Assembly: GCA_929200535.1 (NCBI GenBank)
Contig: CAKMZV010000013.1
Coordinates: 1-54,634 of the forward strand
Direction of reading: 5' to 3'
DNA from: an uncultured Gammaproteobacteria bacterium
GTDB lineage: Bacteria > Pseudomonadota > Gammaproteobacteria > CAKMZV01
DNA: 54,634 nt
The position numbers were made by a program, and so were the translations under genes. The notes below the pieces were generated by a model. The model did not search any database. It was not told where the DNA came from and saw nothing but the letters and a program-made list of their open reading frames with translations. This document shows, piece by piece, positions 1-31,380 of this stretch; the stretch's first letter is position 1, and each line of letters begins with the position of its first letter.

Positions 1-1046
1 CATCCTGCTCTGATAATTCAAAAGATGTCTCAGCAACGACCTTTATTGATACCCCCGGTCTTAGCTTAACAGCGGATAGTGTTTCACAAATTACGGTACG
101 GTGGAATAGCGTTGCTGGAGTAGCGTATTATGAAATTTACCGCAACACTAGCAATACAAATACTAGCTTGACAGCTATTGCTAGCCCTATGGTAAGTGAA
201 GGTACCACTTATACTGATAGCGGGCTTACCCCAAAAACCAGATATTATTATTGGATTAAAGCATGCAATACAGGGAATAATTGCTCTGCATTTTCAGAAA
301 TGGCATCCACACAAACACATGCCGTACCGTTTCCACTCAACGACACAGGCATTACTTGGAGTGGAAATTACTCATCAGGTAATTCAACTGGTACCAATTG
401 CACCCCCACAGGCTTTGCCACAGGCACCGAGCAAGATTGCGATCAGGGTAGAGATGCTCAAGCCGATGATGGCAAGCTGACTAAAGTAGGCAGAGGTAAT
501 GCAGGCTTTGATTTTACCAAATTGGGTAGCACTGGCACAGTATTGGTAGATCAAAACCAAAGCTGGTCAAACTCAGGCAGTGAATCGGCAGGCACAAAAT
601 GGAGCTGTATAAAAGATAACCACACAGGTTTAGTCTGGGAGGTCAAAACCGATGATGGTGGCATTCACGATAAGGATACTGAGTACGCTTGGGGTGGGAA
701 AACGGCTATTGGTGAGGATGCCAAGCCCCGTTGGGGGACCGACTGGTTCAACGCTTGGGATACTCTAGTCGATGGAAGTAATAACGCTACTTTATGCGGT
801 TTTACTGATTGGCGTGTACCAGTGAGAGAAGAGTTACGCTCCATTGTTGATTATAGTCGCACCAAGCCGGCTATTGATACGAATTATTTTCCCAATACGC
901 CATCATCGCGTTATTGGACGTCCTCGCCCAATGCCGGCAATCATCGAGATGCCTGGAATTTCGATTTCAGTAACGGCAATGACAACCTCATCTCCCGCTT
1001 CGGCGACATTCATGTGCGGTTAGTGCGTGGCGGTAGTGGTTCTTAA
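1..1046 (+). CDS. Fibronectin type III plus DUF1566 surface protein, 5' truncated
   Basis: The frame is open from the first bases of the window, so the true start lies upstream; the TTG at 168 is internal. Residues encoded by about 60-330 form a fibronectin type III-like module (VRWNSVAGVAYYEIYR, then TPKTRYYYWIKAC). The C-terminal half is a DUF1566 (Lcl C-terminal) domain: TGLVWEVKT, FTDWRVPVREELRSIVD, FPNTP, YWTSSP and the terminal VRLVRGG. DUF1566 is related to the C-type-lectin fold and is a known target class of diversity-generating retroelements. The last 45 or so codons match those of the gene ending at 1825 in a very unusual way (see findings). Likely exported and ligand-binding (inference); its ligand is unknown. 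Confidence 0.8.
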   Translation, partial: SCSDNSKDVSATTFIDTPGLSLTADSVSQITVRWNSVAGVAYYEIYRNTSNTNTSLTAIASPMVSEGTTYTDSGLTPKTRYYYWIKACNTGNNCSAFSEMASTQTHAVPFPLNDTGITWSGNYSSGNSTGTNCTPTGFATGTEQDCDQGRDAQADDGKLTKVGRGNAGFDFTKLGSTGTVLVDQNQSWSNSGSESAGTKWSCIKDNHTGLVWEVKTDDGGIHDKDTEYAWGGKTAIGEDAKPRWGTDWFNAWDTLVDGSNNATLCGFTDWRVPVREELRSIVDYSRTKPAIDTNYFPNTPSSRYWTSSPNAGNHRDAWNFDFSNGNDNLISRFGDIHVRLVRGGSGS

Positions 1047-1086
1047 TTTTTTTATTTTATCAATCAATAAAATTAGCAAAATAATT

Positions 1087-1209
1087 ATGAGCCAATGGCA
1101 CCGAGAAAAATTCACCATTTGGGCAGATGCTGAACGCCTAAATCTATTAATTGAAGAAGCCGTACGTACCTTTCCAGGCTGCCAATTGCGCCAAGTGGAA
1201 ACGAGGTGA
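1087..1209 (+). CDS. Small 40-aa ORF between the DUF1566 genes
   Basis: An ATG at 1087 opens 40 codons (MSQWHREKFTIW, then LIEEAVRTFPGC) ending at 1209. No convincing ribosome binding site precedes it. I do not recognise the family. The segment with a helix followed by FP and a later LR faintly recalls the FP-containing turn of S23/Avd four-helix proteins, but the ORF is far too short for those and the likeness may be chance. It may be a gene fragment or untranslated. The DUF1566 gene at 1280 follows after 70 bp. Confidence 0.25.
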   Translation: MSQWHREKFTIWADAERLNLLIEEAVRTFPGCQLRQVETR

Positions 1210-1279
1210 AATCTTATCCTAAAAAGTGCCTACCAATAAATAAAAATAATAACCACAATAAATTAACAGGAAAAAAACA

Positions 1280-1825
1280 ATGATAAAAACACAAATGATA
1301 AAAACACACCGCTGGTTATTGGCTACGCTACTGAGTATGTACGGCATAAGCGCCATAGCCGCTCAAGAGTGCTTACCTGAATCCCAGTACCCCAATCAAT
1401 GGAAGGACAGTCGTTATACAGACCATAGCAACGGCACAGTAACAGACAACAACACAAACCTAATGTGGGCGAAATGCTCACTGGGACAAAATGCCACCGC
1501 ATGCAGTGGCTCAGCCACTACTTACACGTGGAAACAGGCCCTTGAAGCAGCAAGCAATAGCACCCTTGCAGAATATAGTGATTGGCGCCTCCCCAATATC
1601 AAGGAAATTGGTTCTCTATCAGCACTAAATTGTCTTAATCCTACCATCAATCTGAACCTTTTCCCCAATACCCCAACATCGGCTTTTTGGGCGTCCTCGC
1701 CCTATGCCGGCAGTAGTGGCAATGCCTGGATTTTCTTTTTCTTTGGCGGCAGTGACGGCAATGAAAGCCGTGACCGCAACGGCTACAGTCGTGTGCGGTT
1801 AGTGCGTGGCGGCAGTGGTTCTTAA
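1280..1825 (+). CDS. Secreted DUF1566 domain protein
   Basis: 181 aa. Residues 1-28 look like a signal peptide (basic start, hydrophobic WLLATLLSMYGISAIAA, cleavage before QECLP). The rest is one DUF1566 domain: GTVTDNNTNLMWAKC, YSDWRLPNIKEIGSL, FPNTP, FWASSP and the terminal VRLVRGGSGS. The start at 1280 follows AGGA at a proper distance; a second in-frame ATG at 1295 comes from a short duplication of ATGATAAAAACACA. The domain keeps the conserved scaffold, while the segment between WASSP and VRLVRGG differs from its neighbour mostly in first and second codon bases, as expected for a lectin-like variable surface. Function is not known. Confidence 0.8.
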   Translation: MIKTQMIKTHRWLLATLLSMYGISAIAAQECLPESQYPNQWKDSRYTDHSNGTVTDNNTNLMWAKCSLGQNATACSGSATTYTWKQALEAASNSTLAEYSDWRLPNIKEIGSLSALNCLNPTINLNLFPNTPTSAFWASSPYAGSSGNAWIFFFFGGSDGNESRDRNGYSRVRLVRGGSGS

Positions 1826-28602: not shown

Positions 28603-31380
28603 ATGAAGCTTCTCAATAATATTTTTGGTAGTCGTAATTCACGATTAATTAAGCAGTATAAAAAAACCATACTAAAAATTAATGCCCTTGAAGATACATT
28701 AAAAAAACTATCTGATGAGGAGCTTTCGGCACACACTGATATATTCAAACAGCGGCTGAATGATTCAAAAAATCCCGCTACTTTAGATGATTTACTTCCT
28801 GAAGCATTTGCCGTTTGTCGTGAGGCTGCAGTACGTGTTTTGAAAATGCGACATTATGATGTCCAATTGATTGGCGGTATTGTTCTTCATAATGGTAAAA
28901 TTGCCGAAATGAGTACAGGCGAAGGGAAAACTTTAGTCGCTACTTTACCCGTTTATTTAAATGCTTTAACTGGTGATGGCGTTCATGTTGTCACCGTAAA
29001 TGACTACCTTGCCAGACGTGATGCAGAATCGATGGGTCAAATCTATAAATTTCTTGGGCTTAGCGTAGGCATTGTACATAGTGAACAAAACTATGAAGAG
29101 AAAAAAATTGCTTATCAAGCAGATGTTGTTTATGCAACTAACAATGAATTAGGGTTTGATTATTTGCGTGATAATATGGTGTTTAACCGTAAGGAACAAC
29201 GCCAAAGAAATCATTGTTTTGCTATTGTTGATGAAGTTGATTCTATCCTAATTGATGAAGCTAGAACACCACTCATTATTTCTGGAGCAACGGACGATAA
29301 TATAGAAGTTTATCCAATTATCGATACAATTCCCAACAAGCTAACCTGTCAAATTGGAGAAATAAACAAAGAGGGAATTCCATCTGAAAATTTTAAGGCG
29401 GGCGACTACACGGTTGATGAAAAGTCAAAACAAGTTTATTTAACCGATCAAGGGCATGAAAAGGTTGAAAAAATGCTCAACCAAAAAGGATTATTACCAG
29501 ATAATGCCAGTCTTTATGATGCTCGTTATATTTCTCTTAACCAATATGTTAATGCCTCAATTCGTGCTCATCTACTTTATGAAAAAAATGTTGATTATAT
29601 TATTGAAGAAAATGAAGTCGTTATTATTGATGAATTTACAGGGCGAAAAATGTCTGGCAGACGTTGGTCAGATGGTTTACATCAAGCGATAGAAGCTAAG
29701 GAAAAAGTAGCTATTCAAAGTGAAAATCAAACCCTTGCCTCTATCACTTTCCAAAATTATTTTCGTTTGTACGATAAGTTAGCTGGAATGACGGGCACAG
29801 CAAACACTGAAGCCGTCGAGTTACAGCAAATTTATAAATTAGAAGTGATTGTTATTCCTACGAATAAGCCTATTATTCGTGAAGATTGTGCCGATGTTAT
29901 TTATTTAACAATGCAAGAGAAGTTTCAAGCCATTGCCGATGAAATTCAAGAAGTGCAAAAAAATGGAGGCAGACCTATTCTTGTAGGAACAGCCTCTATT
30001 GATTCTTCAGAAAAATTATCGAGTATGCTCACTAAAGCAAATGTTAAGCACGAACTTCTTAATGCAAAGCAACATTTGAGAGAGGCATTTATTATTGCAC
30101 AGGCAGGGCGAATAAATTCTGTTACCATTGCGACTAATATGGCGGGGCGTGGTACCGATATTGTGCTTGGTGGCAATATAACTGCTACGATTGAAAAAAT
30201 TGAAGATATTTCAGAGGAAAAATATCAAGAACTTCAAAAAGAATGGGAAATAGAGCATAAAAAAGTTTTAGAATTAGGTGGGTTATACGTTATAGGTACT
30301 GAACGAAATGAGTCCAGGCGTGTTGATAATCAATTGCGAGGGCGTTCGGGACGACAAGGAGATCCTGGAATGAGTCGTTTTTATCTCTCTCTCGAAGATG
30401 ATTTAATGCGCATTTTTGCTTCGGATAGAATGCGTACAATGATGCAAAAATTAGGACTTGAACATGGTGAATCCATACAGCATTCAATGGTTTCAAAGGC
30501 AATTGAGAATGCACAATCAAAAGTGGAAGGGCGTAACTATGAAATGCGTAAACAGCTTTTGGAGTATGACGATGTAATTAACGAACAACGTAAATTAGTT
30601 TACAAACAACGTGATCAACTCATTAGCGATGAGGATATTTCTAAAATAATTGAAGAAATGCGAGAATCAGTTTTTGAAGGCATTATTAGTGAATACATTC
30701 CCACAGGTTCGCTTGAAGAACAATGGGATATAGAAGGCTTAGAGATGTTATTGAAAAACGACTTTTCTCTTGATTTACCTCTACAACAATGGTTAGATGA
30801 AGATAGCTTGCTTAATGAAGATAGTTTGCGTAAAAAAATTATAGAGGCATCCGTTACTCAATATAATGAAAAAGAAATCCTTGCTGGAAAAGAGCAGCTT
30901 AGAGAATTTGAAAAAGCTGTGCTGTTGCAGCTTTTAGATCATCTTTGGAAAGAACATATAGCCTCTTTGGATTATTTAAGGCAAGGAATTCATTTGCGGG
31001 GTTATGCACAAAAAAACCCTGTACAAGAATACAAACGTGAAGCATTTGAAATGTTTCAAGAATTTCTTTTTAACCTTCGCCGTGATGTGATTAAATTACT
31101 TTCGCAAGTAAAAATATCTCAAGACTACGAAGCTCCAGAGTTTGATCAACCTCGTGATGAAAATTATAATTTTCATCACGAGGCTTCCGAAAGTTTATTT
31201 GCTAACAATCCACTTTCTGAATCGCCTCAAAATTCTTCAACCTCTTTTTCAAATGCAACGCAACAACAAGAACCAGAAAAAGAGCAACCTTATATTAGAA
31301 AAGATCCAAAAATAGGACGCAATGATCCTTGTTATTGTAACTCAGGTAAGAAGTATAAGCATTGTCATGGGAAAACTTGA
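28603..31380 (+). CDS. secA: Preprotein translocase ATPase SecA
   Basis: 925 aa, close to the E. coli length. Walker A MSTGEGKT, DEVDSILIDEARTPLIISG, NMAGRGTDIVLGGN, RGRSGRQGDPG and C-terminal SEC-C zinc motif CYCNSGKKYKHCHG are seen. SecA drives unfolded preproteins through SecYEG. It stands alone, without secM or mutT next to it. The ATG is preceded only by an A-rich sequence. Confidence 0.97.
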   Translation: MKLLNNIFGSRNSRLIKQYKKTILKINALEDTLKKLSDEELSAHTDIFKQRLNDSKNPATLDDLLPEAFAVCREAAVRVLKMRHYDVQLIGGIVLHNGKIAEMSTGEGKTLVATLPVYLNALTGDGVHVVTVNDYLARRDAESMGQIYKFLGLSVGIVHSEQNYEEKKIAYQADVVYATNNELGFDYLRDNMVFNRKEQRQRNHCFAIVDEVDSILIDEARTPLIISGATDDNIEVYPIIDTIPNKLTCQIGEINKEGIPSENFKAGDYTVDEKSKQVYLTDQGHEKVEKMLNQKGLLPDNASLYDARYISLNQYVNASIRAHLLYEKNVDYIIEENEVVIIDEFTGRKMSGRRWSDGLHQAIEAKEKVAIQSENQTLASITFQNYFRLYDKLAGMTGTANTEAVELQQIYKLEVIVIPTNKPIIREDCADVIYLTMQEKFQAIADEIQEVQKNGGRPILVGTASIDSSEKLSSMLTKANVKHELLNAKQHLREAFIIAQAGRINSVTIATNMAGRGTDIVLGGNITATIEKIEDISEEKYQELQKEWEIEHKKVLELGGLYVIGTERNESRRVDNQLRGRSGRQGDPGMSRFYLSLEDDLMRIFASDRMRTMMQKLGLEHGESIQHSMVSKAIENAQSKVEGRNYEMRKQLLEYDDVINEQRKLVYKQRDQLISDEDISKIIEEMRESVFEGIISEYIPTGSLEEQWDIEGLEMLLKNDFSLDLPLQQWLDEDSLLNEDSLRKKIIEASVTQYNEKEILAGKEQLREFEKAVLLQLLDHLWKEHIASLDYLRQGIHLRGYAQKNPVQEYKREAFEMFQEFLFNLRRDVIKLLSQVKISQDYEAPEFDQPRDENYNFHHEASESLFANNPLSESPQNSSTSFSNATQQQEPEKEQPYIRKDPKIGRNDPCYCNSGKKYKHCHGKT

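Follow-up and report, generated by a model that had tools for sequence, protein, structure and literature searches.

At the start of the window, by which we mean the whole 54,634-nucleotide stretch of DNA that was analyzed, two genes for DUF1566 proteins lie on the forward strand with a short open reading frame (ORF) between them:

3–1046, + strand: gene 1, encoding fn3 plus DUF1566 (PF07603, Lcl_C; E = 1.6e-30) and truncated at its 5' side by the contig end; candidate "long" target of a diversity-generating retroelement (DGR), from an operon place like that of the long target in the related genome G059.
887–1059, + strand: variable-region (VR) block of gene 1, with a hypervariable core at 930–1013 and a constant VRLVRGGSGS tail at 1014–1046.
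1087–1209, + strand: putative truncated copy of avd, the gene for the DGR accessory protein, which stops after 40 codons and lies between both targets, assigned from an Avd profile, an alignment with the Avd of a second relative (G115), and start spacing.
1210–1279, + strand: predicted scar, where the 3' part of avd, the template repeat, and the reverse transcriptase (RT) would be missing; these are present in the equivalent G059 interval and absent here and assembly-wide.
1280–1825, + strand: gene 2, encoding a short DUF1566 protein of 181 residues with a signal-peptide-like start (PF07603, E = 4.7e-30; 55% identity to the G059 short target); candidate "short" DGR target.
1660–1837, + strand: VR block of gene 2, with its core at 1703–1792 and its tail at 1793–1825.

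At 1859–2156 there follows a MITE-like insertion. Its terminal inverted repeats (GAGACC/TTTTGCA type) are imperfect, its target duplication is TCTTA, and a locus on contig C21 of the same genome shows the empty site.

An earlier note on this DNA had recognized a DGR-like mutation pattern at the 3' ends of the two genes, and a recount bears out its figures: when codons 915–986 are paired with 1688–1759, the third base is the same in 23 of 24 pairs, and none of the changes in the 12 differing codons is synonymous. Beyond a two-codon indel, the third base is again the same in 8 of the 9 following codons, and the VRLVRGGSGS tails (1014–1046 and 1793–1825), which the note had called nearly identical, differ by 1 base. 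At the DNA level, the two genes share a homologous block with abrupt edges (887–1059 vs. 1660–1837; 77% aligned identity), and no significant similarity between them is found outside these last ∼170 bp. The scaffold is saturated, with 69 of 82 codons different, and where a scaffold codon differs at its first or second base, the third is retained in only 15 of 55 cases; the figure for the variable region is 15 of 18 (binomial p ≈ 1e-6 vs. the scaffold); the pattern is thus beyond chance. As in known DGR targets, a C-type-lectin-like domain (PF07603 in both genes) carries a C-terminal VR, both VRs run into a common constant tail resembling an initiation of mutagenic homology (IMH) site, and variation is confined to AAY sites, the last being an indirect match because the genome's own template is missing.

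The window's genome assembly (1.97 Mb in 50 contigs, 100% complete) contains 25 DUF1566 domains, most of them located at the ends of contigs. The usual arrangement is a long fn3 gene with short ones behind it, and the proteins sort into groups by their C-terminal tails. The signature is carried by at least seven VRs, namely those with GGSGS tails (L006 and L009) and the ASQ group (L001, L002, L004, and L010, with L003 included by its core); the other DUF1566 subfamilies lack it. Taking the GSGS and ASQ tail groups together, 163 of 175 variable codons (93%) end in C or T, and base use at codon positions 1 and 2 is nearly identical (A,.35/.37; G,.37/.37; C,.13/.13; T,.14/.14). Variation in the LGR, SDF, and STL groups lacks the AAY signature; codons ending in a purine make up 38% of the variable codons in the LGR group vs. 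7% in the signature group (p ≈ 7e-14). Members of the LGR group (L007, L011, L013, L014, L018, L020, L021, and L024) show variable patches on an otherwise conserved scaffold, with mostly non-synonymous changes. The finding that 46 of 46 columns contain an A was set aside as proof by itself, because for seven or eight sequences almost that number is expected from base composition.

At C21, C8, and C47, dissimilar scaffolds carry this discrete block too, its start lying about 153–165 bp ahead of the stop codon. In addition, the long genes on C8 (L035, C8:1671–2104) and C47 (L034) share an identical tract of 434 bp in loci that are otherwise about 82% identical, which is the product of a recent gene conversion through much of the DUF1566 domain including the VR; the VR within this tract shows no re-mutation since then.

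Relatives of gene 2 are encoded by 61 of 369 genomes of the class, the window's own counted, and cassettes with the machinery in place are found in G059 and G115. The order in G059 (contig C276) is long DUF1566 target, avd, template, RT (499 residues), and short DUF1566 target, and in G115 (contig C72, a short contig) it is long target, avd, template, and RT. In both, as in the window, the long DUF1566 target has a C-terminal VR that ends in VRLVR, with an AAY template in the cassette, and G059 shares with the window a short target as well, placed behind the RT. The G059 RT matches the Brt of Bordetella phage BPP-1 (E = 1e-31) and has the PIGNLSSQ motif; the Avds of both genomes match those of viral DGRs, and that of G115 weakly matches Avd models. 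Mismatches between template and VR fall at 14 of 34 A and 0 of 80 non-A sites for one G059 target, at 14 of 34 and 4 of 80 for the other, and at 19 of 36 and 1 of 95 in G115. A further RT, in G014, was rejected as a DGR control, being retron-like in appearance and having no DUF1566 target beside it. In G115 (L205 and L256–L264), about 35 DUF1566 candidates retain third bases between neighbors and are apparently many dispersed targets of one DGR-bearing genome, and the cassette-adjacent target of this genome (G115:C72, L275/L251) has a 1-nt VR deletion relative to the template, which shifts the frame.

A template inferred from the window genome's own ASQ group, before the cassettes of the relatives were known, resembles the G059 template: TCCTCGCCCAATGC, AATAGCAACAATGC, and TTCAACAAC occur in both, in the same order. 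When viral contigs were searched with the template-like pattern, 62 of 71 stretches found also carried a Brt-like RT; the pattern retrieves viral DGRs. Measured against the G059 template, six signature VRs have mismatch fractions of 0.47–0.56 at A sites and 0.21–0.26 at other sites, the gene 1 VR has 0.50 and 0.35, and the LGR group has 0.24–0.42 at other sites. The own template behind these VRs is an inferred one, and the two window VRs differ by 2 codons in length; template-VR indels are present in G059 as well.

To calibrate the pattern, we measured the fraction of third bases kept in changed codons for long-short pairs within one locus. In the cassette-bearing genomes, this fraction is 0.78–1.00, mostly 0.92–1.00 (G115 pairs, 0.78–1.00, with 4 of 5 loci at or above 0.92; G059 pair, 0.94). 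Other pairs range from 0.19 to 0.72 overall, mostly 0.19–0.56; those of the class lie mostly at 0.28–0.56, with one at 0.72, and in the window's genome, the C47 pair has 0.53 and the C26 pairs have 0.19–0.35. With values of 0.88 for the window, 0.94 for C21, and 0.87 for C8, the window pair groups with DGR targets. The mutation fingerprint reported in the earlier note is therefore real, as calibrated against complete cassettes in relatives; the cassette acting from elsewhere that the note had also envisaged finds no support in the assembly.

The ORF between the two targets (1087–1209), which the note had passed over, reads MSQWHREKFTIWADAERLNLLIEEAVRTFPGCQLRQVETR. In a search of 5130 ORFs from the genome's own loci with an Avd profile built from 58 sequences, it is the top match (E = 0.0052, with the next at E = 3.1); the stub is short, and this E value over 5130 ORFs is modest when taken alone. 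Aligned with the G115 Avd, the ORF has 65% identity over 20 residues (score 62; maximum of 1000 shuffles, 43), and the distance from its ATG to the gene 1 stop codon is about equal to that in G059. The stub has no match in a Pfam search and is absent from the matches listed for an own-genome search with the G059 Avd. A solitary PF05635 gene on C27 was rejected as an Avd, as it sits in a MoxR/DUF58 operon and lacks a match to the Avd profile. A second avd remnant, of ∼33 residues (E = 2e-5), is found in G272 (L220:1851–2058), between its long and short DUF1566 genes.

Taken together, we think it likely that the window holds a decayed DGR locus with orphaned VRs that were recently templated and now have no visible writer. 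The gene order in the window is that of G059, except that a truncated avd (1087–1209) alone is left between the targets; avd, template, and RT are all present in G059 and G115, and of these the window retains 40 avd codons. Because the stub lies there and the G059 cassette lies between homologous genes, the cassette most likely sat between genes 1 and 2 and was then deleted. Genes 1 and 2 would have been the long and short targets of one DGR, for which the adenines of an AAY-rich template would have been randomized by error-prone reverse transcription, with the cDNA replacing the last ∼130–170 bp of each target; the outcome would be lectin-like tips whose variation lies at the first two codon positions, with third bases in common. 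The later loss of the 3' part of avd, the template repeat, and the RT from the interval would have removed this genome's own RT and template, the C21, C8, and C47 loci would have been in-trans targets of this or a sister DGR, and the lectin tips would now be altered by ordinary mutation and gene conversion alone.

That no RT or template repeat lies inside the window, as the note had stated, is confirmed, and no DGR RT or template is found in the assembly as a whole. Searches of the assembly for a DGR-clade RT (with Pfam RVT_1, BPP-1 Brt, and the G059 RT) return only a Cas6-RT-Cas1 fusion of 986 residues (L026, G000:C18; RT domain at 29264–29884, minus strand), the assembly's only RT, and searches of the genome for a template repeat, with either the VR or a concatenation of 15 VRs as the query, return only the VRs themselves. 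A Cas2-like gene lies behind the fusion on C18, forming an RT-bearing (type III-like) CRISPR adaptation module. Of the Avd that a complete DGR would have, the genome holds just the 40-codon remnant, and the GC-rich hairpin or cruciform of DGR targets is not found just downstream of its signature VRs; in BPP-1, the post-VR structure is needed for efficient homing (PMC3240598). In G059, an 8-bp GC-rich hairpin comes after each of the two VRs, a feature that is likewise not found at most G115 targets. The earlier note had proposed that its reading would fall if the genome had no RT or template repeat and other paralogues diverged at third positions in the ordinary way; the former is the case for this assembly, and the latter holds for the LGR, SDF, and STL tail types, in part of the family, which argues against present activity in this assembly and not against a DGR origin of the pattern.

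Between the two VRs, the non-A sites are almost unchanged (1 of 24 third bases different, then 1 of 9), which indicates recent templating, so that a cassette could still exist in other cells or in DNA that was not assembled. A DGR might then persist and act in trans from DNA absent in the assembly, whether a collapsed repeat, a plasmid, a phage, or a subpopulation with an intact locus, and most DUF1566 loci do lie at contig ends in an assembly of many contigs; in Thiohalocapsa PB-PSB1, the locus in the assembly was degenerate while other cells carried intact copies of it (PMC10907252). We nevertheless regard a persisting DGR as unlikely, given a complete genome in which no DGR RT, template, or template-like tail is found, phage records and viral contigs that gave chance matches alone (one viral contig with an IMH-like tail, L202, proved to be a chance match within a phage terminase-like gene), signature VRs without the hairpin that G059 has, and a C8/C47 VR that was not mutated again after its conversion. 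A broader and more speculative extension of the decayed-locus reading, which we hold to be rather improbable, is that paired DUF1566 targets repeatedly lose the DGR cassette between them, leaving a short N-terminal avd ORF (as in the window and G272) that might keep a function, and that the multigene lectin family then diversifies by gene conversion of frozen DGR-made tips. That no DGR was ever involved, and that the pattern arose from diversifying selection acting on lectin loops together with gene conversion between the 25 paralogues, is highly improbable even though gene conversion is real in this family (C8/C47) and hypervariability occurs without the AAY signature in the LGR, SDF, and STL groups, since selection would also favor purines at the third base (N to K, D to E, H to Q, S to R), which the LGR group has far more often than the signature group, and since the avd remnant and the cassette between homologous genes of relatives would be left unexplained.

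Among DGR targets, DUF1566 is the most frequent Pfam domain (PMC6642488), and orphaned DGR targets are already known, to which the decayed locus in the window adds an unusually clear scar. Treponema denticola isolates lacking RT and TR still carry orphan DGR targets (PMC4891356), so that there, as in the window, VR-bearing targets persist without the core cassette; the window differs in its avd stub and recent shared templating, and belongs to a different phylum and target family. Thiohalocapsa PB-PSB1 has degenerate and trans-target DGR loci (PMC10907252) that, like the window, are missing machinery and contain MITE-like elements, but intact DGRs remain in its genome, and none was found in the window's. 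The BPP-1 DGR has target with VR, small gene, TR, and RT in the corresponding order and uses adenine mutagenesis, although it is an intact phage system with another target protein, and remnant TR-VR homology has been described for a cyanobacterial paralogue (PMC7517822). Because a large metagenome survey of DGRs goes through the RT and states that remote targets are missed (PMC8144416), orphan targets are probably undercounted. As the window pair illustrates, DGR-made diversity can be recognized without RT or template, from the share of third bases that long and short targets retain, once this is calibrated on cassette-bearing relatives, and paired targets with a cassette (G059 and G115) and without one (the window and G272) make the gain, loss, and after-life of DGRs testable within one gene family.
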